64,000 nucleotides of DNA, from the NCBI RefSeq assembly GCF_025144665.1, contig NZ_CP102294.1, forward strand, positions 558,001 to 622,000. Reading direction: 5' to 3'. The DNA is from Alistipes ihumii AP11 (GTDB taxonomy: Bacteria > Bacteroidota > Bacteroidia > Bacteroidales > Rikenellaceae). Of this stretch, positions 5,616-57,874 are shown piece by piece. A program made the translations under genes and the position numbers. Positions within the stretch are counted from its first letter, which is position 1. The number at the start of each line of letters is the position of its first letter. Under the pieces are notes generated by a model that did not search any database, had not been told where the DNA came from, and was given only the letters and a program-made list of their open reading frames with translations.

Positions 5616-6689
5616 CTATTTGGCATGGATCTTCTCGAACTCGCGCATGCAGTCGACCAGTGCCTGCACGCTCTCGATCGGCAGCGCATTGTAGATCGAC
5701 GCGCGGAAACCGCCCACCAGACGGTGCCCCTTGATGCCGACCATACCTTTGCCCTTGGCGAACTCGAGGAACTCGGGTGCCAGATCGGCATACGGCTCGC
5801 TCATCACGAAGCAGACGTTCATCAGCGAGCGGTCCTCCTTGACGGCCGTCCCGACGAACAGCGGGTTACGGTCGATTTCGGCGTAGAGCAGATCGGCTTT
5901 CGCCTTGTTGCGCTTTTGGATTTCGGGTACGCCCCCGATCGACTTGAGCCACTTGAGCGTCTCCTTCACGACATAGATCGCGAACACGGGAGGCGTATTG
6001 AACATCGACTTGCTGGCGATGTGATTGCGGTAGTCGACCATCGAGGGCAGCGGACGGGAAACCTTGCCCAGCGCGTCCTCCCGCACGATGACGAACGTCA
6101 CGCCGGCAGGACCGATGTTCTTCTGCGCGCCGCCGTAGATCATCGCGTACTTGCTCACGTCGACCGGACGGCTCAGAATGTCGGAACTCATATCGGCGAT
6201 CAGCGGAACCGGCGAATCGATGTCGGTGTGGTACTCCGTGCCGTAAATCGTATTGTTGGAGGTAATGTGCAGATAATCCAAATCCGACGGGATGGCGTAT
6301 CCTTTCGGAATATAGGTGAAGTTCTTGTCTTCCGAGGAAGCGAGCACCTCGACCTCGCCGAACAATTTGGCCTCTTTGATCGCCTTCTTGGCCCATACGC
6401 CCGTATTGACGTAACCGGCTTTCTTTTCGAGAAAATTGTAGGGCACTTCGAAAAACTGGGTGCTGGCGCCGCCGCCCAAGAAAAGAACTTTGTAGTTGTC
6501 GGGAATATGCAGCAATTCGCGGAAAAGCGCCTCGGCTTCGTCGTTCACGGCTTCGAAATCTTTCGTCCGGTGCGATATTTCCAGCAGCGACAGCCCGATG
6601 CCTTCGAAGTCCAAAATAGCCTTGGCGGCATTCTCGATGGCTACGCGCGGCAGAATCGACGGTCCTGCGTTGAAATTGTGTTTTTTCAT
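5616..6689 (-). CDS. serC: 3-phosphoserine aminotransferase
   Basis: A PLP-dependent class V aminotransferase (357 aa) that converts 3-phosphohydroxypyruvate and glutamate to phosphoserine and 2-oxoglutarate. The same enzyme family acts in pyridoxal phosphate synthesis. Recognised from the start [16 protein letters not shown], the [17 protein letters not shown] substrate-loop region, the PLP-lysine segment [13 protein letters not shown], and the C-terminal [15 protein letters not shown]. Length is typical. It is the first gene of serC-serA-DUF1015 and has a candidate promoter about 55 bp upstream. Confidence 0.97.
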
Positions 6690-6744
6690 CGTCGTAAAAG
6701 AAATTATACGGTTAATACTCTAAAAGAATCGGGAATAACAGCTT

Positions 6745-6752
6745 CAAACTTA
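6745..6752 (-). promoter_or_regulatory. -7 element for the serC operon
   Basis: The minus strand reads TAAGTTTG (TAnnTTTG), 55 nt upstream of the serC ATG. The -33 region is weak. Confidence 0.5.
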
Positions 6753-6838
6753 CCAAAAAATCTCCGAACCGCGAAAGATTTTCCCGTTTTTATACAACAA
6801 CCCGAAACCGTCCATTTTTTTTAACGCGTTTTTTGGCT

Positions 6839-6846
6839 TACTTTTG
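6839..6846 (+). promoter_or_regulatory. -7 element for the yicC operon
   Basis: TACTTTTG lies 24 nt before the yicC ATG at 6871, with a T-rich stretch upstream. Transcription would start near 6853, which rules out the in-frame Met codon at 6844. Confidence 0.6.
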
Positions 6847-6870
6847 CAAGCGTTTCCAAATGATAGCGTG

Positions 6871-7755
6871 ATGATTAAATCGATGACAGGCTACGGCAAG
6901 GCCGAAGCCGCGACGGAGCACAAGAAGATAACCGTCGAAATCCGCTCGCTCAACAGCAAGCAGCTCGATCTGGCGGTCAAGCTGCCGTCCGCATACCGCC
7001 AGTGCGAATACGAGATCCGTCAGAGAGTAGGCAAACGGCTCCAACGAGGGAAAATCGACGTCTTCGTATCGTACGAAACGGTAGGTCGGGCCACCGGCGT
7101 GACGATCGACCGGGACATTTTCGCGCACTATGCCGGGCAGCTCCGCGAACTCGCCGAGGCGAGCGGGCTGGGCTGGGGGAGCGCGGCGGCCGACGCGGCC
7201 GCGATGACGGCCATACTGAGGCTGCCCGACACCGTGCAGAACAACTCCGAAGCCGTTTCCGACGAAGAACTGACAGCACTTGGCAGCGCCGTAGCCGAAG
7301 CCCTCGACCGCATCGACGAGTTCCGCGCTCAGGAAGGAACCACGCTGATAGCCGACCTGCTCCGCCGCATCGACCGCATCGAGCAGATCAAAAACGAGAT
7401 CGAACCGTACGAGAAAGCACGCACCGAAACGATCAAGGCCCGGATTCGGGAACACGTCGAATCGCTCGGCATACCCTACGACGCGGGACGGCTCGAACAG
7501 GAAATGATCTACTACATCGAAAAACTGGACATCACCGAGGAGAAAGTCCGCCTGCAAAACCACTGCCGCTATTTCCGCGAAGTGGCGCATGCCGAGCAGG
7601 GAGCGGGCCGCAAGCTCGGGTTCATCGCGCAGGAGCTCGGGCGCGAGATCAATACGCTCGGATCGAAGTCCAACGAAGCGACGATGCAGAAAATGGTCGT
7701 CGAGATGAAGGACGAGCTCGAAAAGATCAAGGAGCAGGTGCTCAACATCTTGTAG
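6871..7755 (+). CDS. yicC: YicC family endoribonuclease
   Basis: A 294-aa member of the YicC/YloC family, which includes endoribonucleases implicated in small-RNA turnover. The diagnostic N-terminus MIKSMTGYGKAE fixes the start. The C-terminal signature REINTLGSKSNEA is followed by a charged helical tail ending LEKIKEQVLNIL. The middle is helical and rich in Glu/Arg. It is the first gene of a run with gmk (45 bp downstream) and nadD; yicC-gmk adjacency is common in bacteria. The RNA target here is unknown. Confidence 0.92.
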   Translation: MIKSMTGYGKAEAATEHKKITVEIRSLNSKQLDLAVKLPSAYRQCEYEIRQRVGKRLQRGKIDVFVSYETVGRATGVTIDRDIFAHYAGQLRELAEASGLGWGSAAADAAAMTAILRLPDTVQNNSEAVSDEELTALGSAVAEALDRIDEFRAQEGTTLIADLLRRIDRIEQIKNEIEPYEKARTETIKARIREHVESLGIPYDAGRLEQEMIYYIEKLDITEEKVRLQNHCRYFREVAHAEQGAGRKLGFIAQELGREINTLGSKSNEATMQKMVVEMKDELEKIKEQVLNIL

Positions 7756-7800
7756 AAGCACCTTTCCCGAATTAAATCCATCCGATCAAACGCTACAGCC

Positions 7801-8376
7801 ATGTCCCGAATCACCGAAGGAAAAGTCGTCATTTTCTCGGCTCCGTCCGGAGCGGGAAAGTCCACGATCATCGGCCGCCTGCTCGAAAAATTTCCCCGCC
7901 TCGAATTTTCCATATCGTGCACGAGCAGGCCGCCGCGAGGAAAAGAAGTTCACGGACGCGAGTACTATTTCCTCAGCAACGACGAGTTCAAAGCGCGCGC
8001 GGGGGCAGGGGAGTTCGTCGAATGGGAGGAGGTCTATCCCGGAACCTGCTACGGCACGCTGCGCAGCGAAGTGGACAGGATATGGGAGAAGGGGAGCGTA
8101 ATCGTTTTCGACGTGGACGTCAAGGGAGGCGTCAATCTCAAGAAAACGTTCGGCGCAAGCGCCCTGTCCGTCTTCATCATGCCGCCTTCGGTCGATGAGC
8201 TGCGGCGCCGGCTCGTCGGCCGGGGAACCGACTCGGCCGAAACGATCGAAAAGCGGGTGGCCAAGGCCGAGCAGGAGATCGCCCATGCCCCGCAGTTCGA
8301 CCGGGTGATCGTGAACGACTCGCTCGAAGAAGCCGTCGCCGAGGCAGAAAAAACCGTCGCCGAATTCATCGGATAG
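7801..8376 (+). CDS. gmk: guanylate kinase
   Basis: Phosphorylates GMP to GDP with ATP, essential for guanine nucleotide supply. The 191-aa protein has the P-loop SAPSGAGKST (residues 13-22), the GMP-binding stretch SCTSRPPRGKEVHGREYYF, and the lid-region segment RRRLVGRGTDSAETIEKR. Length is usual for bacterial enzymes. It follows yicC by 45 bp, and its stop codon is one base before the nadD ATG, so the genes are probably translationally coupled. Confidence 0.97.
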   Translation: MSRITEGKVVIFSAPSGAGKSTIIGRLLEKFPRLEFSISCTSRPPRGKEVHGREYYFLSNDEFKARAGAGEFVEWEEVYPGTCYGTLRSEVDRIWEKGSVIVFDVDVKGGVNLKKTFGASALSVFIMPPSVDELRRRLVGRGTDSAETIEKRVAKAEQEIAHAPQFDRVIVNDSLEEAVAEAEKTVAEFIG

Positions 8377-40773: not shown

Positions 40774-42186
40774 CTACCGAGCGAGCACTTTCTTCTCGAT
40801 CTCCTCGACCTGATAGCGGAAAAGCTTGTCGGTCTCCATCAGATTGGAAATGGCCTTGCAGGCATGAAGCACCGTCGCGTGATTCTTGCCTCCGATCGCC
40901 GCTCCGATCGCCGTCAGAGGAGCCTTGGTGTGTTGCTTGCTCAGATACATCGCGATCTGGCGCGCCTGCGCGATTTCGCGCGTCCGCTTCGGCGAGTTGA
41001 ACGTCTCCGCATCGAGTCCCATATGCTCGCAGACCACCTTCTTAATATGATCGATCGTAATCTCGCGCCGGTTGAACTGCACATACACCTTCAGAATCTC
41101 CTTGGCCAACGTGATCGTAATCTTCTTGCCGAGAAACGAGGCGTTCGCCACCAGCGACGACAGCGCGCCTTCGATTTCCCGCACATTGGCATTGATATTC
41201 TCCGCCAAGAACTCGATTACCTCCTGAGGCACCTCGGCCCCCAGCTTCCGGGCCTTGCCCTGTACGATCTTGACCTTCGTCTCGAAATCCGGCAACAGCA
41301 ACTGCGTCGAAAGCCCCCACTTGAAGCGAGTGATCAGCCGCTGCTCGATGTCTTTCAGTTCGACGGGCGGCTTGTCGGAGGTCATTACGAGCTGCTTGTT
41401 CGACAGGTGCAGATGATTGAATATGTTAAAAAAGGCGTTTTGCGTCTTGTCCTTACCGGCCAACTCCTGTATATCGTCGATAATCAGCACGTCGAGCATC
41501 TGATAGAAATGGATGAAATCGTTCAGCTCGCCCTTGATCGCCGCATTCTGAAACTGCGCCTGAAACTTGTTCATCGACACGTACAGCACCTGCAGCTGCG
41601 GCTTACGCTGCTTGACCTCCATGCCGATAGCCTGCGCGATATGCGTTTTCCCGAGGCCCGAATCGCCGTATATATATAAGGGATTGAAAGGCGTCCGCCC
41701 CGGATCGACGGCCACGGCCAGCCCGGCCGAACGGCAAAGACGGTTGCACGCGCCTTCGACAAAGGTATCGAACGTATAATTGGGATTGAGCTGAGGATCG
41801 ATCACCAAACGCCGTATGCCCGGAATGACAAACGGATTCTTTATATTCGTCGTATCGGACTGCGCGACGAACTTGTTGATCGCCGTCATATCGGCATCGC
41901 CCACGACCGTGACGGCGGCCGGCTCCGTCTTGGGCACGGCGTATCGCAACTTGGTCTTGAGCCCGAAAAGCTGATGAATAATGGGTTTGAGCAGCGGGAT
42001 GAAGTGCTTTTCGATATGATATACGTAACTCTCGTTGGGCACTTTGAGCTTCAGCGTCACTCCGTCGAAATCGAGCGGAACGATCGGCTTGAACCACTTG
42101 GCGAACTCCTCGTCCGAGGTATGCTCGCGAATGCGGCTCAGACAGCTTTGCCACACATCTCCATATGTTTGGTTATTGATTATCAT
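40774..42186 (-). CDS. dnaA: chromosomal replication initiator DnaA
   Basis: The AAA+ initiator of chromosome replication (470 aa from MIINNQTYGDVW; a second in-frame Met lies 7 codons upstream at 42207). Domain I is at ~1-85, domain III from YTFDTFVEGACNR with Walker A YIYGDSGLGKTHIAQAIG and Walker B VLIIDDIQ, and domain IV has the DnaA-box binding motif GGKNHATVLHACK. Recognition is unambiguous. No DnaA-box cluster was found on either side, so this is not shown to mark the origin. Confidence 0.97.
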   Translation of the reverse strand: MIINNQTYGDVWQSCLSRIREHTSDEEFAKWFKPIVPLDFDGVTLKLKVPNESYVYHIEKHFIPLLKPIIHQLFGLKTKLRYAVPKTEPAAVTVVGDADMTAINKFVAQSDTTNIKNPFVIPGIRRLVIDPQLNPNYTFDTFVEGACNRLCRSAGLAVAVDPGRTPFNPLYIYGDSGLGKTHIAQAIGMEVKQRKPQLQVLYVSMNKFQAQFQNAAIKGELNDFIHFYQMLDVLIIDDIQELAGKDKTQNAFFNIFNHLHLSNKQLVMTSDKPPVELKDIEQRLITRFKWGLSTQLLLPDFETKVKIVQGKARKLGAEVPQEVIEFLAENINANVREIEGALSSLVANASFLGKKITITLAKEILKVYVQFNRREITIDHIKKVVCEHMGLDAETFNSPKRTREIAQARQIAMYLSKQHTKAPLTAIGAAIGGKNHATVLHACKAISNLMETDKLFRYQVEEIEKKVLAR

Positions 42187-42344
42187 GAATTTCTTACTGT
42201 TTCGCAAGACAAAATTGTAAATAAAATTACAAAAAAAACATCGCCCCGAGGTTGTTTGTTTGGCAAATATTTATATAGAAGAATAAGGGTTCCGAATAGG
42301 TCCGATTTTAACCTTTTGATATAGAGTATTCAAAAAATTAGCAT

Positions 42345-44622: not shown

Positions 44623-44731
44623 ATTTAACATAATTGATGCGCGCGGAAAAACCGCCGAATCGCTCAAGCGAAGGAGGGTAGGAGATAACGCAAAATAATT
44701 ACATCCGAACGATTTACCCAATCTCATATAT

Positions 44732-45217: not shown

Positions 45218-45700
45218 ATGCGCGAAAGGCTGTCGAAATTCATCGAAATGGAAAGGCTGACTTCTTCCAGACTGGCGGAAATTCTGGGTGTTCAGCCGTC
45301 GAATATTTCCCATATTCTCGGAGGCAGAAACAAACCCAGTTTCGAATTCATCGAAAAGTTATTGCTGCGTTTTCCGAAACTCAACCCGGATTGGATTATT
45401 CTCGGCAAAGGACCGGTTTATCGTCCCGAGATACCTTCTGTCGTTCGGCCGACAGAAATTCCTGAACCGGAAACCGATCTGAATCTTTTCTCGGATACTA
45501 CGACCGCGATCCGTTCGCAACAACATGACGCTCCCGAAAAATTCCTCCCGGCCTCTGATGTCCAAGATCCGGCAAAGGAAAATTACACGGCCTCGGAACC
45601 ATCCGTTCATGCGGATATCGATGAAGTCCCGGAATCGGAAATAGATCGAATCATCCTTCTCATGAAGGATAAAAGCTGCATATGCTATCGTCCGAAATGA
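45218..45700 (+). CDS. XRE family transcriptional regulator
   Basis: A 160-aa protein with an N-terminal Cro/CI-type helix-turn-helix (about residues 1-65: LSKFIEMERLTSSRLAEI, then VQPSNISHILGGRNKPS). A proline/acidic linker follows, and the C-terminal tail is short and helical with two Cys. No peptidase S24 or metabolite-binding domain is seen, so it is a small DNA-binding protein of unknown target. An in-frame Met at 45170 would add 16 residues but lies upstream of the best promoter. The coding DNA is less GC-rich than average. Confidence 0.8.
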   Translation: MRERLSKFIEMERLTSSRLAEILGVQPSNISHILGGRNKPSFEFIEKLLLRFPKLNPDWIILGKGPVYRPEIPSVVRPTEIPEPETDLNLFSDTTTAIRSQQHDAPEKFLPASDVQDPAKENYTASEPSVHADIDEVPESEIDRIILLMKDKSCICYRPK

Positions 45701-46168
45701 TTCGTATGAATTTAACATAATAGCAAGAGGCGTTGTCGATTTTACGGAAGGAATCCAAGAACAAAATTGCTAAAAGTCATATCTCCGTAAAGAAAATACC
45801 TTTTCTCTACGACCGTCGTTCAGTGCTTTCATTAAGAAAGCTTCAAGACTAAAAGAAATCACAGAAACAGGCAAACTAAGATTCATACAATAGTCCTATT
45901 TACAGCGTATTATAATTTGAATCCTGCAAGTTTACATATGAATTATAATTAGCATTATGTTAAATAATAGTGCTTTTCGCTTCTCCTATAACAAGCAATT
46001 GCCTGCAAACATTCTCAACCAAAACAGAATTTCAGATCGACGAGGTCTACACTACTATCTCAAATCATGATAATAATGCTCGCACTCCGACGCACTGCAA
46101 CAATAGAAACCTTGAATCGAACGATATTTCAATTCAGACTGCTCCGAGGAGACGCAGCTCATACCCGA
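45701..46168. other. gene-free flank of the tandem array with short intergenic repeat, copy 2
   Basis: The 16-nt GGAATCCAAGAACAAA at 45750-45765 matches 35580-35595 exactly. The rest is AT-rich with no hairpin terminator after the XRE gene. Small frames here have no recognisable features. Confidence 0.4.
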
Positions 46169-46880
46169 CATCGATGCGTTCGGCTTGCGGCATTGAGCGA
46201 GCTGACAGATCATTTCCCGTTCGATTCGCGGGCAAGAATGGACAAGGCCGACACAAACATCGATGCGTTCGGCTTACGGCATTGAGCGAGCTGACAAATC
46301 GTTTCCCGTTCGATTCGCGGGCAAGAATGGACAAGGCCGACACAAACATCGATGCGTTCGGCTTACGGCATTGAGCGAGCTGACAAATCGTTTCCCGTTC
46401 GATTCGCGGGCAAGAATGGACAAGGCCGACACAAACATCGATGCGTTCGGCTTACGGCATTGAGCGAGCTGACAAATCGTTTCCCGTTCGATTCGCGGGC
46501 AAGAATGGACAAGGCCGACACAAACATCGATGCGTTCGGCTTACGGCATTGAGCGAGCTGACAAATCGTTTCCCGTTCGATTCGCGGGCAAGAATGGACA
46601 AGGCCGACACAAACATCGATGCGTTCGGCTTACGGCATTGAGCGAGCTGACAAATCGTTTCCCGTTCGATTCGCGGGCAAGAATGGACAAGGCCGACACA
46701 AACATCGATGCGTTCGGCTTACGGCATTGAGCGAGCTGACAAATCGTTTCCCGTTCGATTCGCGGGCAAGAATGGACAAGGCCGACACAAACATCGATGC
46801 GTTCGGCTTACGGCATTGAGCGAGCTGACAAATCGTTTCCCGTTCGATTCGCGGGCAAGAATGGACAAGGCCGACACAAA
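46169..46880. repeat. eight tandem copies of an 89-bp repeat
   Basis: The unit starts ATGCGTTCGGCTTACGGCAT and recurs at 46174, 46263, 46352, 46441, 46530, 46619, 46708 and 46797, exactly 89 bp apart. Copies 2-8 look essentially identical. Copy 1 differs at a few bases (for example TTGCGG for TTACGG), and the last copy changes after its CACAAAC. Because 89 is not a multiple of three, each frame shifts at every unit and stops in the third copy, so the array is not one long protein. Each unit holds small inverted repeats (CCCG...CGGG around TTCGATTCG; GGCCGA...TTCGGC across the junction). There are no unique spacers. Confidence 0.95.
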
Positions 46881-47021
46881 CGGGTATAACGAATCGCCTC
46901 ATACGCTGCGCTGCAAACGGTCGTTACAGGGATTTACGACGGAGCCGATAGCTTGCCCTGTCGAAGAAACGCCGGACGAATTTCCAATAAAAGCACGTAG
47001 CTCGTCCTACGAGCAGCGAAA

Positions 47022-47048
47022 CCCTATTTACCCTATTTACCCTATTCG
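47022..47048. repeat. three 9-bp tandem units
   Basis: CCCTATTTA at 47022-47030 and 47031-47039, followed by the variant CCCTATTCG at 47040-47048. Confidence 0.7.
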
Positions 47049-47423
47049 AAATGCCGATCGTTGTCGCCGAGCACGATCTCATCCGCCGAACAGGACGAAC
47101 ACCACGAATATTCGGCCCGTTCTCCCGGCTCCCATTTTCCGCCGCACCCGACAGCCCCCATGTGCCGCCGCAGTTCTCGAACCCGAAAACCGACACGACC
47201 CGATTTCGCAGCACGAACAGTCCCTCGATTCAGTGAGGGCCCGACCAGACAAGCGAGCCTTAGGAGCATTATTGGCTGCATTTACCGGTCATCATACCAT
47301 GCACGGGGGAGATACGGGAGTCCCCGAAAGCCGATTTATCCTATCCCATTTTTTATCGGACGACAGCCCAAAACAAACATATGTCGCCTGTATCGTGCGG
47401 TTTCCGGCGAGCACCCGGCAAAC

Positions 47424-47566: not shown

Positions 47567-50416
47567 CTACAATTCGGAAAGAATCCGCTTTTTCAAGGTA
47601 TTCATATCCGCATCGGTCACATACACTTTGCCCCGGACATGGTAACGCTTTTTCGTAGGAGCATCGACAGGCTTCAAAATCAGTCCCATGCTCTCTCCCC
47701 TATGGAAAGCTCCTTCGGCATTGAGGAAAACCAAGGCCAAAGCATGCTTTCCGTCGGACGAACGGACCGCCACAGCCCTTACGGAACCGGCCAAGCTATC
47801 CTCCACTTCGGCCCATTCTCCGTCGACCAAAGCCTCCGGACGAGCACCTTCGAACGCCGTTCCGCTCAAGTCGATCGTATACTCCGGCGAAGAATGGCTG
47901 TAATCCGGCTCGTAGTTCTGCCACCAATATTCCAGATCGATGTCGTCTTCGTTGGGGCTTAGGCGGCCGCCTCTCTCCCACTCTGCAAATTGCTGCTTGA
48001 ACCACAGCGAGTTGCCTTCGCTGAGGCTCCATTTCGGCGTGAAACGCTCGTCTCCGACAGCATACATCGTAGGTTGCGGGATCGTCAGTACGACATCTCC
48101 TGCGGACGTCGCGATCTGCACGGCGCTTCCGACGGGAGCACCCTCATACTCGATCTGGCTCAACTCGATCTTACCCGGCATACGGAGGCTCTCCCCTACC
48201 GTCACTTTCAACTGTTGCGGCTCCTCAGAGGCCGAAACGAGGAAAACGGCTCCGAACGTTCCGTCCTCGTCGCAGAATACCTGATAGCCATCCAGAGCGT
48301 TGTTGCGCGAATGATAGAGAGGTCTCCACGCGTCTCCCTCACGAACGAATATGCGAGGCATGCGCCATTGGGTCAACCCTTTGACCACGACGGGAATCAG
48401 GTTCTTGCCACCGGCCACGGTGAACAACGCTCCGTTGTTCTCGGCCCTGACCACAATCGGCAGATCGCTCACCTTCTCGCCCTGCTCGACCGACACCACG
48501 TGCATAGCTCCCTCTGCATCGTAACGCACGACCATTTCGGGGCTCTTCGTGTCGAACGTAGCTCCATAGGGCAACCAATAGCCCTCGATCTCGATAACGT
48601 CGCCCGCTTTCAGCTTCAGGTCGTCCGTATCGGGCACCAGACACATGCGCGTGTCTTTCGCAGCATCCTGCTCGAAGACATTCTTATAACCACCCAACTG
48701 AACCGTAGCGGCCGGCTTGAGTCCCCCTGCGCTGAATCTCTTTACGATAATCGCATTCGATCCTCTTTTGTTCAGCGAATCGCCGTACTCCGCGATAAAG
48801 AAATTTTCCTCGGGCAATGCGACTCCTTTCACGGGGAAAGGCTTTTTGCTCGGATCGAGCCTGATCTCGTCGACACCGGTCGCCGCAAAGCGGTCGAAAC
48901 GCAGCCCCTGAATAATCGACGCGATAGTCAAGAAGCGGCAATTCGCGCGAGCATCGGCGATTTCCAGCGGCTGGAGCACCTCGTAGCGAACCTTGAAATA
49001 ACTGCGGAGCTCGTCGTTCTGAGGCGTCTCGAAAATGTCGGCCGTCACTTTGATCTTGCCGTCGGAAGTCAGATAGCGCAGACCTATATCGTACCAGTTG
49101 GGCCCCGTACTGCGATAAACGGTTCCCGTATAGACCGGATGAATCCAGTCCTTGCCGTCGTAATAGGACAGGAAGCTGTGTCCGGCCAGATTGTCGTGCT
49201 GAGGCTGGTCTACCCAAAAGCATTCCTGACTCATGGCGCGGAAATCGGCGATCGTCACACCTCCTAATCCGGCAAACTTGAACGGCACGTAACAGGTCGT
49301 CTCGGTCACGCCGGTCGAGCTGTGAAAATAGTCCATCCATGCTCCGAGCGACGACCAATGCTTGGTCATGTGCCGTCCCCAGTTCTGGAACAGGTGCAGG
49401 CTCGTCAGCGTATGGCTCTCGCCCGGCTCGAGATAAAGCGGAAAAATCGTTTCGCTGAACGGCTGGTCGGTCGGATTATAGAAAGCCTCCTCTTTCTCGC
49501 CGGCAAAGTTCTTTGAAACCTGCACGACGATCGGCATCGGATGCCCTTCGCGATCGAGCAGCATACCTCCCTCGGTGATTTCTCCTCCGTCGGACGACTC
49601 GTGGCAGACATAGATTTTACGCTTCACGCTGTCGTTGTTCACACGGAAAGTAACCGTCTCGTAAAAATTCGGCTCGTCGTAAAGTTTCTTTTGGAAGCCG
49701 CCGTCCGTGTGACTGCCCAGAATATAGCAGCCGCGCTTGCGGTCATACCGCACCGGATTACGTCCCGCCAACAGGCGGAAAGCATCGGCCGGCAACGGTT
49801 CCGACTCTCCGAATATCGGGAACGAGTAGCTCTGGATCGTACCTTTAGCAAAAGGTTTGAAGCCGTCGTATTTCTGCTCGACGAGACCTTTGACCTCCAT
49901 CGAGGCGGGAACGAAGCGACCCGATCCGTGCCAGGTAATGTCAGCCAGTATCTTCTCGGGATAGCAATACAGCGTCAGGTCGCCGCGCAGCGCAGCCGTA
50001 TCCTTCTTATCCGTAGCCAAATGCACGTCGAACCAGTGTATCTCGCAATAGTACGGTCCCCGGCGATAGAGATTGATGCGCGTCTCACCTCGATAGTTCC
50101 GCGTCGAATATCGAGTGCCGGACGCGTCCTCCATCTCGAACCAAAGCCAAGGAGTTCCGTCGGCCTTGTTCTGCAGCAAATGAGGCGCGCGCAACTGTCC
50201 TATCAGATGATACTCTTCGGCAAGTATTTCAAAAGCCGTGCGCGAGGAATCGGTATAGGCCACTTCGAGCTGAGGCCTCGCCGCAACAGGCTGATAACGG
50301 AAATCTTCCTGCCACAGAGCCGCATCGGGCTCCCGGCCGGCAGAATCGGAACATGACGTCAGCCCCGCCGTCAAAAGAGCGGTCGACGCGCAAATTACCA
50401 ACAGGTTTCTTTTCAT
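47567..50416 (-). CDS. 949-aa outer-membrane lipoprotein, unknown family
   Basis: A large protein with a lipoprotein signal peptide (lipobox GLTSC, lipidated Cys22, next Ser-Asp-Ser). I recognise no enzyme or binding family. It is rich in Trp/Tyr and beta strands. Aromatic segments such as WYDIGLRYLTSDGKIKV and FWVDQPQHDNLAGHSFLSYY suggest a carbohydrate-handling beta-sandwich fold, but no catalytic motif is evident. It lies downstream of the SusC/SusD locus on the same strand, separated by a very strong terminator at 50648-50690, so it has its own promoter or depends on readthrough. A surface enzyme or large glycan-binding protein of that locus is plausible; this is inference. Confidence 0.7.
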   Translation of the reverse strand: MKRNLLVICASTALLTAGLTSCSDSAGREPDAALWQEDFRYQPVAARPQLEVAYTDSSRTAFEILAEEYHLIGQLRAPHLLQNKADGTPWLWFEMEDASGTRYSTRNYRGETRINLYRRGPYYCEIHWFDVHLATDKKDTAALRGDLTLYCYPEKILADITWHGSGRFVPASMEVKGLVEQKYDGFKPFAKGTIQSYSFPIFGESEPLPADAFRLLAGRNPVRYDRKRGCYILGSHTDGGFQKKLYDEPNFYETVTFRVNNDSVKRKIYVCHESSDGGEITEGGMLLDREGHPMPIVVQVSKNFAGEKEEAFYNPTDQPFSETIFPLYLEPGESHTLTSLHLFQNWGRHMTKHWSSLGAWMDYFHSSTGVTETTCYVPFKFAGLGGVTIADFRAMSQECFWVDQPQHDNLAGHSFLSYYDGKDWIHPVYTGTVYRSTGPNWYDIGLRYLTSDGKIKVTADIFETPQNDELRSYFKVRYEVLQPLEIADARANCRFLTIASIIQGLRFDRFAATGVDEIRLDPSKKPFPVKGVALPEENFFIAEYGDSLNKRGSNAIIVKRFSAGGLKPAATVQLGGYKNVFEQDAAKDTRMCLVPDTDDLKLKAGDVIEIEGYWLPYGATFDTKSPEMVVRYDAEGAMHVVSVEQGEKVSDLPIVVRAENNGALFTVAGGKNLIPVVVKGLTQWRMPRIFVREGDAWRPLYHSRNNALDGYQVFCDEDGTFGAVFLVSASEEPQQLKVTVGESLRMPGKIELSQIEYEGAPVGSAVQIATSAGDVVLTIPQPTMYAVGDERFTPKWSLSEGNSLWFKQQFAEWERGGRLSPNEDDIDLEYWWQNYEPDYSHSSPEYTIDLSGTAFEGARPEALVDGEWAEVEDSLAGSVRAVAVRSSDGKHALALVFLNAEGAFHRGESMGLILKPVDAPTKKRYHVRGKVYVTDADMNTLKKRILSEL

Positions 50417-54991: not shown

Positions 54992-57874
54992 TTAGAATGT
55001 CAGACTGAGTCCAATACTGTACGAACGAGTGGCAGGATAACCAGTGAAGGTTTCCGGATCGATGAAATCCATCTCGCGACTGATCGTAAACAGATTCTGT
55101 CCCCTGAAATACACCTTGGCTCCACGGAAACCGATCTCCTTCATCCATTTCTGCGGGAATTCGTAACCGATCTCCAGGTTGCGAAGCTTGAAATAGTCGT
55201 TCGACCGCAGCCATACCGTGCTGGCCTGCGAGTTGTTCGGGTTATTCAGCGTAGACAACCGCGGCAGTACGGCCGTAGCGGCCGTCTCGGGCGTCCAGCT
55301 TTGCTTGGCATACTGGAACGCATTGTTATTGTTCCAGAACGGCAAGAAAGTATCGGCAGCATTGGTCAGCATGATCGAGCTGTTGATCGTTCCTTGTCCC
55401 ATAGCGTACAGATAGACGTTCTTATACTTCAGGTTCAGGCTGAAAGTATAGGTATACTGGGGAAGGTCCTGATACCCCATAGGAACGACATCGAAACTGT
55501 CGATCATACCGTCATTATTCACATCGACATAGCGCGCATCGCCTTCCTGTACGGAACCGTAGGAAGGAATGGCCGTCATGTTGTCGAGATCCTCGGCCGT
55601 ATAGAAGCCGTCGCACAAAAGGCCCCACTTCTGTCCTACGGCCTTGCCGATCCAAGAGAGATACTTCTGCGTATTGAGGTCGTAAAGATTCGCATCCGGC
55701 CGCTTGTTGATGATGTTGTGATTGTACCAGATGCCGCCCTGAACCGAGTACTCGAAATCGCCGGCATGGCCGAACACCTCGAGCGTAGCCTCGTAACCGC
55801 GATTGGTCACTTCGCCGCCGTTACCCCAGCTGGCTCGCTCTATACCCATCGTGAGAGGCTGCGAGCCCGTGTTCCGGGTAAGGATATCCTTACGCACATC
55901 GTGGAAATAATCGAACATCAGGTTGACGTGGTTGAAGAAAGTACCTTCGATCGAGATATCGGTCTTATACGACTTGTCCCAAGTAATGAAAGGGTTAGCC
56001 AGCATATCCTCGAACGTACCTCCGATTGAGGTCGTCGTGCCCGGCACACCGAAAGTGTAAGTGCCCGAATTGTAATAGAACTGCTGATAGAAGATACGAT
56101 CGGTGGCAGAACCTCCGGTGAAAGCCGAACCGCCCACCTTGCCGTACGAAGCGCGCAGTTTCAGGTAGTTGACCACCTTACTGTCCTTCAGGAAGTTCTC
56201 CTTGGAAATCACCCAAGCCAACGCTCCGGCGGGGAAGAAGCCGAAACGGCGCCCCGGCATATACTGTTCCTCGCCATAGTAGCTGGCTGCGAACTCGGCG
56301 AAGTAACGATCCTTGAATCCGTAGTGCGCACGGAATCCGAAACCGGCCGTATTGAACTTATAGTAGCTTCCGCTCTGCTGATAACGGTCCATGTGATACA
56401 TCAGCATGGCGTCGACCGAGTGGTCGCCGAAAGTCCGGTTGTACGCAGCGAAAGCCTCGAAGTTGAGACGCTGATACTGGTAGTTCACGGAGCTCTGCCA
56501 AGAGAGGTCCGTATCGTCGTTGTACTGGCGGTACGCATACTCGCCCGCGCCGGTCACGGGATCCGGAGCCCCCGTAATATCGAATACCGCAAAGTTGCGC
56601 AACTTGTCGTCGGCCACAAGCATCGCATTCATCGCCGAACCGCCGATGCCGACCGAAAGTCCCTTGACCGTTTCGCCGAAATCGTACTTCAGTTTCAGCG
56701 TCATATCCAAGTTGCGGTAGAGCCTGGTTTGGTAACCCTTGTGCGCGACCAGACCCAGCGGGTTGTTCGTATAGCGGGACGTGCCGCCCAGCGAGCCGTC
56801 CGGGTTCACCAACGGATACTCTTGAGGCGGAGTACGCATGGTAGCGTCGAGAATGCTCGCGGTGGTGCTACCGGGGAAACGACGGCTGTCGACACGGCCT
56901 CCCATATCGATCTGCGCAGAGAGGTTCTTGGTGATGTTGACGTCCAAGTTACTCCGCAGATTGAAACGGTTCATCCGCACCTGAGTGGTATAGTCGTTCA
57001 GGTCGGTATGATTGAACATACCGCCGTTGTGCATGTAGCCGGCCGTCACCATGTACCGCACGGCTTTCGTACCGCCGCCGATATTGATGCCGACGTTCGA
57101 GATCAGAGTCGACTTCTTGAATATCTCGTCGAAGTAGTTGTTGTCGGGATGCGTGTACTGGTACACTCCGCCCTTGCCGTAGTTCGGGAGGTCGGTGATC
57201 GGGTCGTACAAGACAGGCAGACCGTCGTTGGTACGCGCCTGATTGTGCAGCACGGCGTACTCGTACGCATTCAGCATATCGGGCTTGTTGGCGAATTCCT
57301 GCCACCCGACGTTGACGTTCACGTCGATCGTCGTCTTTCCGACAAAACCGCGCTTGGTCGTTACCAACAGGACTCCGTTGGCAGCCTGCTGTCCGTACAG
57401 AGCGACCGCAGCCGCGTCCTTCAGAACCGAGATGCTTTCGATCTCATACAGGGAAAGCTGGTTGTACTCCGTCCTGAAACCATCGACGATCACCAGCGGC
57501 GTATTCGCGCCACCGTAGGTATTGAGTCCCCGGATGTAGATGCTCGGTTCGTCTCCTCCCGGCTCGTACGAGCCTTTTTTAACGATCAGACCGGGCAGAC
57601 GGCCGATCAGGGCCTCGCCTATCGACGTAGCCGTCGACTTTCTCAGCTCGTCGGCATGGACCGTGCTCATCGACGAAGTCACTGCGTCGTATTTTTGCTT
57701 GCCGTAAGCCACGTCCACCATCCTTTCGGATGCGCGAAGCGTGTCTCCCAAAGTCGGAATCTCTGCGAAAGCTCCCGTTTTAGGTCCTTCGGCCTTGACG
57801 GTCGTCGCGGACACAAACAAGATCAGGAACGATGCAAAGCAACTTTTCACCTTGTCATTTATATGTTTTTTCAT
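54992..57874 (-). CDS. SusC/RagA-like TonB-dependent transporter (pair 2), without N-terminal extension domain
   Basis: A 960-aa outer membrane transporter. The plug begins soon after a signal peptide (MKKHINDKVKSCFASFLILF) with VAYGKQKYDAVTSSMSTV, then IGEALIGRLPGLIVKKG, SIYIRGLNTYGGANTPLVIV and the SusC signature SVLKDAAAVALYGQQAANGV. The barrel ends SYSIGLSLTF. The N-terminal carboxypeptidase-regulatory-like domain found in most SusC proteins is absent; only ~40 residues separate signal peptide and plug. It pairs with the following SusD gene. Confidence 0.93.
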   Translation of the reverse strand: MKKHINDKVKSCFASFLILFVSATTVKAEGPKTGAFAEIPTLGDTLRASERMVDVAYGKQKYDAVTSSMSTVHADELRKSTATSIGEALIGRLPGLIVKKGSYEPGGDEPSIYIRGLNTYGGANTPLVIVDGFRTEYNQLSLYEIESISVLKDAAAVALYGQQAANGVLLVTTKRGFVGKTTIDVNVNVGWQEFANKPDMLNAYEYAVLHNQARTNDGLPVLYDPITDLPNYGKGGVYQYTHPDNNYFDEIFKKSTLISNVGINIGGGTKAVRYMVTAGYMHNGGMFNHTDLNDYTTQVRMNRFNLRSNLDVNITKNLSAQIDMGGRVDSRRFPGSTTASILDATMRTPPQEYPLVNPDGSLGGTSRYTNNPLGLVAHKGYQTRLYRNLDMTLKLKYDFGETVKGLSVGIGGSAMNAMLVADDKLRNFAVFDITGAPDPVTGAGEYAYRQYNDDTDLSWQSSVNYQYQRLNFEAFAAYNRTFGDHSVDAMLMYHMDRYQQSGSYYKFNTAGFGFRAHYGFKDRYFAEFAASYYGEEQYMPGRRFGFFPAGALAWVISKENFLKDSKVVNYLKLRASYGKVGGSAFTGGSATDRIFYQQFYYNSGTYTFGVPGTTTSIGGTFEDMLANPFITWDKSYKTDISIEGTFFNHVNLMFDYFHDVRKDILTRNTGSQPLTMGIERASWGNGGEVTNRGYEATLEVFGHAGDFEYSVQGGIWYNHNIINKRPDANLYDLNTQKYLSWIGKAVGQKWGLLCDGFYTAEDLDNMTAIPSYGSVQEGDARYVDVNNDGMIDSFDVVPMGYQDLPQYTYTFSLNLKYKNVYLYAMGQGTINSSIMLTNAADTFLPFWNNNNAFQYAKQSWTPETAATAVLPRLSTLNNPNNSQASTVWLRSNDYFKLRNLEIGYEFPQKWMKEIGFRGAKVYFRGQNLFTISREMDFIDPETFTGYPATRSYSIGLSLTF

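Follow-up and report, generated by a model that had tools for sequence, protein, structure and literature searches.

A probable 89-bp minisatellite without encoded product beside the likely dif site of Alistipes ihumii AP11

A stretch of 64,000 nucleotides of the Alistipes ihumii AP11 chromosome (contig NZ_CP102294.1, positions 558,001 to 622,000, hereafter the window) contains an array of near-identical 89-bp repeats next to an XRE gene. A preliminary description of the locus had offered three roles for the array, namely a protein-binding array, a repetitive small RNA and a recombination hot spot. The question addressed here is whether the array has any such function, or is an ordinary kind of repeat. 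Its features are as follows (positions are those of the window).

46168-46881, no strand: tandem array, non-coding, eight copies of an 89-bp unit (ACATCGATGC...CCGACACAA) plus two bases (AC) of a ninth
46168-46256: copy 1, the sole diverged copy in the copy-by-copy comparison, with three A/G transitions
46257-46879: copies 2-8, identical to one another
46161-46167 (left arm) and 46881-46887 (right arm): 7-bp inverted repeat ATACCCG / CGGGTAT at the array edges

The observation itself was confirmed. TRF reported a period of 89, 8.0 copies, 99% matches and 0% indels (score 1407), in agreement with the eight near-identical repeats of exact period described before, whereas the other three TRF rows in the window had scores of only 50-53. 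The array was found where it had been placed (46169-46880), with true edges one base further out on each side. Copies 2-8 were indeed identical (0 differences) and copy 1 slightly diverged (three differences, at unit positions 20, 41 and 45, each an A/G transition). All copies are arranged head-to-tail, in the same orientation and without spacers, and the GC content of the array is 54%. Head-to-tail, spacer-free copies of a unit longer than about 10 bp characterize a minisatellite or VNTR. A CRISPR array was rejected, as there are no unique spacers between the repeats and the units follow each other exactly head-to-tail. The inverted repeat at the edges may be a chance occurrence: for random 714-bp spans of the window, the probability of an edge inverted repeat of at least 7 bp was P = 0.0045 (one test).

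A protein-coding or repeat-protein role can be ruled out because the period of 89 is not a multiple of three, stops are present in all six frames, as had been noted for both strands, the codon score over the array is negative in six of six frames, and the three chance ORFs in or beside the array had no Pfam match at E <= 0.1. The surroundings of the array consist of the following genes.

40774-42207, minus strand: dnaA (named by eye), about 4 kb from the array
45218-45700, plus strand: XRE/HTH_19 gene, which the genus conserves close to dif; nothing found links it to the array
47002-47256, minus strand: decayed DUF2867 fragment with an in-frame stop, right of the array
47567-50416, minus strand: 949-aa gene, the gene of the SusC/SusD region closest to the array, its 3' end facing the array

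The gene order is dnaA (-), a PMM-like gene (+), HIT (+), XRE (+), the array, the DUF2867 fragment (-) and the 949-aa gene (-), beyond which the genes on the same strand include SusD- and SusC-like ones. Since XRE (+) lies to the left and the 949-aa gene (-) to the right, the two genes converge and the array has a 3' end on either side, downstream of XRE in a gap of 1.87 kb. The product of the 949-aa gene has a lipoprotein-like N-terminus (by eye), and no Pfam match above the cut-off was found for it. The AT-rich island mentioned in the preliminary description was found between 44601 and 45400 (GC 0.28-0.35 in 400-base windows), and dnaA was found at the distance given there. Part of an intact DUF2867 gene located at 1337429-1338061 of the genome matches the right flank of the array (47046-47250) with 79% identity; this identity and the stop in frame identify 47002-47256 as a decayed copy of that gene. 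A 9-bp tandem repeat (ACCCTATTT, 2.9 copies) is present at 47021-47046 within the fragment. Two weaker pieces of the right flank occur elsewhere in the genome (36 bp, E 0.0018; 32 bp, E 0.012), and TRF detected no long-unit array around the 36-bp match. The left flank had short weak matches only in the genome.

The association with the XRE gene proved to be positional only. An XRE match was detected in eight of nine genus genomes (A. ihumii included; G008 is the one without), and in all seven other genomes that have it the gene lies downstream of the PMM-like gene, in the same place as in the window. TRF found no such array in these seven XRE stretches, two of which are short (L047, 3.8 kb; L050, 7 kb). 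As XRE is conserved in relatives without the array, it is hardly the partner of the array.

When the whole A. ihumii genome (2,780,015 bases, one contig) was searched with the unit, eight matches were obtained at E <= 0.001, and all of them were the array itself; a low-stringency search of sampled DNA of the same genome gave matches with E >= 0.61. The search of Alistipes genomes with one unit, proposed earlier as a check, was carried out in nine genomes of this Alistipes-related genus, A. ihumii included (E <= 0.1), and the only match outside A. ihumii was a 24-bp piece in G005. In the family (268 genomes including A. ihumii, E <= 0.01, at most three first-look candidates per genome being scored among the matches listed) the only other match was a 19-bp piece in G137, and in the order (393 genomes including A. 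ihumii, E <= 0.001, at most two such candidates per genome being scored among the matches listed) A. ihumii alone matched. Both short pieces are weak and were taken as chance matches. Thus, the full-length unit was not found in 8 other genomes of the genus, 267 of the family and 392 of the order, these sets overlapping with each other. The unit was also absent from the plasmids, phages and viral contigs searched, collections that may omit records of the A. ihumii genome; the viral contigs were scanned with two unit patterns, with 0 matches. Seven identical copies, and no full unit in the eight other genus genomes, bear out the earlier proposal of a recent expansion or homogenisation.

In a sample of 390.5 kb of the A. 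ihumii genome (32 pieces, the window included) the array was the only non-coding array with at least three copies of a unit of at least 20 bp, which indicates that non-coding long-unit arrays are not common in this genome. The nearest comparable array has a 109-bp unit in 2.1 copies with 97% matches (L066:1361-1589). Neither the 100 kb examined in G001 nor the 80 kb in G002 contained such an array. In the literature, searches on tandem repeats in Alistipes, on 89-bp repeats and on intergenic repeats in Bacteroidetes gave no title on the array among the matches listed.

A block of DNA common to the window and to the post-XRE region of three relatives led to a further feature of the locus.

45938-45965, plus strand: likely dif site, XerC arm ATGAATTATAA, centre TTAGCA, XerD arm TTATGTTAAAT; the array lies 202 bp to its right

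Judged from its sequence, this 28-bp intergenic site (11+6+11) is likely the chromosomal dif site, where replicated chromosomes are separated. Its XerD arm is identical to that of E. coli K12 dif as tabulated by Carnoy and Roten (PMC2731167). It differs from the E. coli site in the XerC arm, where 4 of 11 letters are common (by eye), and in lying 3.7 kb from dnaA. A dif pattern derived from the A. ihumii site and the sites of the relatives, used with up to 3 mismatches, had one match in the window and 0 in 100 shuffles; viral contigs scanned with the pattern gave 0 matches. A full site was present once in each of eight of the nine genus genomes and was not found in G008 (79% complete), in a search that sought exact XerD arms only and would miss a mismatched second site. 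In G007 the full site is on another contig, C52, alongside an NnrD-like gene. Among 32 loci with XRE relatives, two (L071 and L072, both from genus members) have a full dif-like site, and two more (L085 and L094) have weak candidates. As dif sites were predicted earlier in Bacteroidetes strains (PMC3025954), a dif site at this place is expected and not new in kind. In a literature search on Alistipes with dif, terminus or dnaA, the word Alistipes occurred in none of the matches listed.

The exact XerD arm occurs three times in the whole A. ihumii genome, always between 44623 and 45965, the backward control once. The three copies (44623-44633, minus strand; 45710-45720, minus strand; 45955-45965, plus strand) are within 1.35 kb around XRE, and a reverse-strand copy upstream of XRE was seen in eight of eight loci (the window and seven relatives), its XerC side not being conserved. 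These motifs may be bound by the XRE protein or by XerD. Away from the locus the exact arm was also found in G002 (1), G003 (1), G004 (2), G005 (1), G007 (3) and G008 (1), in no case with a XerC arm; backward controls in the other genus genomes numbered 0 to 3 in total per genome.

In samples of the A. ihumii genome, GC skew is for the most part positive between 1.9 Mb and, across position 0, 0.29 Mb, and for the most part negative between 0.42 and 1.83 Mb; the samples at 0.70, 1.04, 1.68, 2.10 and 2.74 Mb are exceptions. If the leading strand is G-rich, as is generally the case, this pattern places the origin near 1.83-1.9 Mb and the terminus near 0.29-0.42 Mb. The dif site at 0.604 Mb is closer to the terminus than to the origin, yet, as far as the sparse samples tell, 7-11% of the genome away from the skew shift, and dif outliers in Proteobacteria and Firmicutes were reported not to exceed 3% (PMC3025954). 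With similarly sparse samples, the fit was good in G001 (dif at 3.016 of 3.020 Mb, skew shift between dif and 0.3 Mb) and off in G002 (dif at 0.084 Mb, skew shift after 0.32 Mb).

Some 1.25 Mb separate the dnaA gene from the skew shift that marks the origin. Because dif lies so close by, dnaA, and with it the region 4 kb from the array, is probably on the terminus side rather than at the origin. The reading of the dnaA neighbourhood as oriC was rejected on two grounds: it is near 1.83-1.9 Mb that the sampled skew turns from negative to positive, and the sole exact TTATNCACA of the window is at 55515, with two one-mismatch matches (44940 and 42216) between 40 and 47.6 kb. The G001 record has its break next to the PMM-like gene, apparently at dnaA, in which case its start is not at the GC-skew origin.

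What follows dif varies strongly between species. In the six genomes that have dif and ZnuA on one stretch, the interval between them is 53, 139, 141, 1518, 4571 and 19398 bp, the last being that of A. ihumii (ZnuA was identified by Pfam in A. ihumii and G005 and by tblastn in the others; in G001 and G006 the interval was measured from the first aligned ZnuA residue). The array is at the dif end of this 19.4-kb stretch, where three relatives have 53-141 bp. The stretch begins at 45966, ends 1.36 kb past the window (L150:1364) and carries the array, the decayed DUF2867 fragment and the SusC/SusD region with a sensor-kinase/regulator gene. Between dif and ZnuA of G001 (L044, oriented 5651-8214) there is a tandem series of four small secreted-protein ORFs that look alike (by eye). 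Integration by Xer was considered for the 19.4-kb stretch because dif-like sites flank Microviridae proviruses in Bacteroidetes (PMC3091885). A second dif-like site was not found between 44 kb and a point 6.5 kb past the end of the window within the limits used (XerC arm with at most 1 mismatch, or both arms with at most 7; a more degenerate site would be missed), so there is no support for an IMEX, i.e. a Xer-integrated element. The two ends of the stretch share a 16-bp match, which was taken as chance.

How do these observations bear on the possible roles of the array? An array of operator, nucleoid or dif-linked sites, to which the XRE protein, for instance, would bind or which FtsK would read, would suit the identical copies in the same orientation 202 bp from dif. 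Such a protein-binding array is nevertheless very unlikely: XRE occurs where the array is absent, the array is located downstream of XRE between 3' ends, and there is no full unit elsewhere in the genome. In addition, the 7- and 8-mers of the unit did not rank with the k-mers of strongest strand bias toward dif: their best z values were 3.2 and 3.4, compared with 5.3 and 4.4 for all k-mers (a rough, uncorrected test on part of the genome, which was uninformative on KOPS-like reading). The position inside a convergent 1.87-kb gap would favour a repetitive small RNA, or a terminator or insulator between the convergent genes, but the array showed none of the signs sought. RNA folding of two units (z -0.22 and +0.96) and DNA folding of one unit (z +0.77) were no better than those of shuffles, and CATCGATG with its core is the only palindrome of at least 6 bp in the unit, which means that the small inverted repeats ascribed to each unit had been overstated. 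TAnnTTTG, the consensus of the Bacteroides -7 box, is absent from both strands of the array, a simple sigma-70-type scan revealed no promoter-like or terminator-like site inside it, and the window had no Rfam match at gathering score and nothing in a tRNA scan. Taken together, these results make an RNA or terminator role extremely unlikely. Neither of these two proposals thus gained support.

A MITE-type element with an internal minisatellite, consisting of leader, repeats, tail and short terminal inverted repeats and mobilized by a transposase encoded elsewhere, is suggested by the 7-bp inverted repeat at both array edges and by BrickBuilt, an intergenic spacer-free array with small inverted-repeat ends in a Bacteroidales genome (PMC4596501). 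The genome, however, lacks a second full copy of the unit, the left flank has short weak matches only, the one strong second match of the right flank is an intact DUF2867 gene and no tail, no target-site duplication was seen by eye, and the edge repeat is weak (P 0.0045), so that such an element is quite improbable. Assemblies are known to be error-prone where tandem copies are identical, and the copy number could have been inflated or collapsed. This is hardly to be expected in a genome that forms one 2.78-Mb contig, and at least two copies exist because copy 1 differs from the rest. A small chance is also left to the array being a by-product, linked to dif, or a working part of terminus processing, in which Xer, FtsK or fork-fusion recombination would amplify dif-adjacent DNA, and the XRE gene and the XerD-arm motifs clustered on both sides of it would form an unrecognised terminus control region in the genus.

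By far the most probable reading of the sequence data is that the array is a species-specific intergenic minisatellite without encoded product, which grew in decayed DNA by duplication followed by slippage or RecA crossover, a course well established for tandem repeats. We infer that the array began with the tandem duplication of an 89-bp piece of decayed non-coding DNA, perhaps at the 2-bp AC with which the unit opens and which also trails the last copy. With two copies present, more would have been added by slippage during replication or by unequal, RecA-dependent crossing-over of sister chromosomes; the newest copies (2-8) would still be identical, and copy 1 at the edge would have drifted. 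The place appears permissive, with convergent 3' ends, a broken DUF2867 gene and a species-variable interval beside dif. The expansion was presumably neutral and may have been helped by recombination in the terminus region, but with a single array a causal link between dif and the array is indistinguishable from chance placement. Counter to plain slippage, the 7-bp inverted repeat fits both array edges, which this model does not predict. A function beyond that of a non-coding minisatellite is not supported, and the earlier interpretation is supported in part: the hot-spot proposal agrees with the site (202 bp from dif, in an interval ranging from 53 bp to 19.4 kb in six genomes) rather than with the unit itself.

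Similar arrays are known from other systems. MIRU of mycobacteria have units of 46-101 bp distributed throughout the genome (PMC2845136); the array resembles them in unit length and in its near-identical head-to-tail copies at the locus, and differs in having its unit at one locus only. Borg repeats are near-perfect, were described as recently formed, are virtually all unique within a genome, and most intergenic ones have unit lengths not divisible by three (PMC9879509). The array shares the near-perfect units and their uniqueness, but Borg arrays make up 460 regions in ten genomes, are A-rich and often have flanking partial repeats (PMC9879509), whereas here there is one array with 54% GC, whose partial copy is just 2 bp long. 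BrickBuilt, a MITE minisatellite of Porphyromonas gingivalis with 19 loci in one strain, a shared leader and tail and IS5-like ends (PMC4596501), is the nearest structural analogue in the order among the systems seen, being likewise intergenic and spacer-free; its short terminal inverted repeats have a possible counterpart in the 7-bp repeat at the array edges. The dispersed copies and shared flanks that it has were sought in the A. ihumii genome and not found.

As a repeat the array is therefore of an ordinary kind; its location is what makes it interesting. It is a candidate marker for strain typing (VNTR). More is gained from the neighbourhood, in which a likely dif site can be placed for the genus, followed by an interval that is strongly species-variable, with dnaA near dif and probably on the terminus side.
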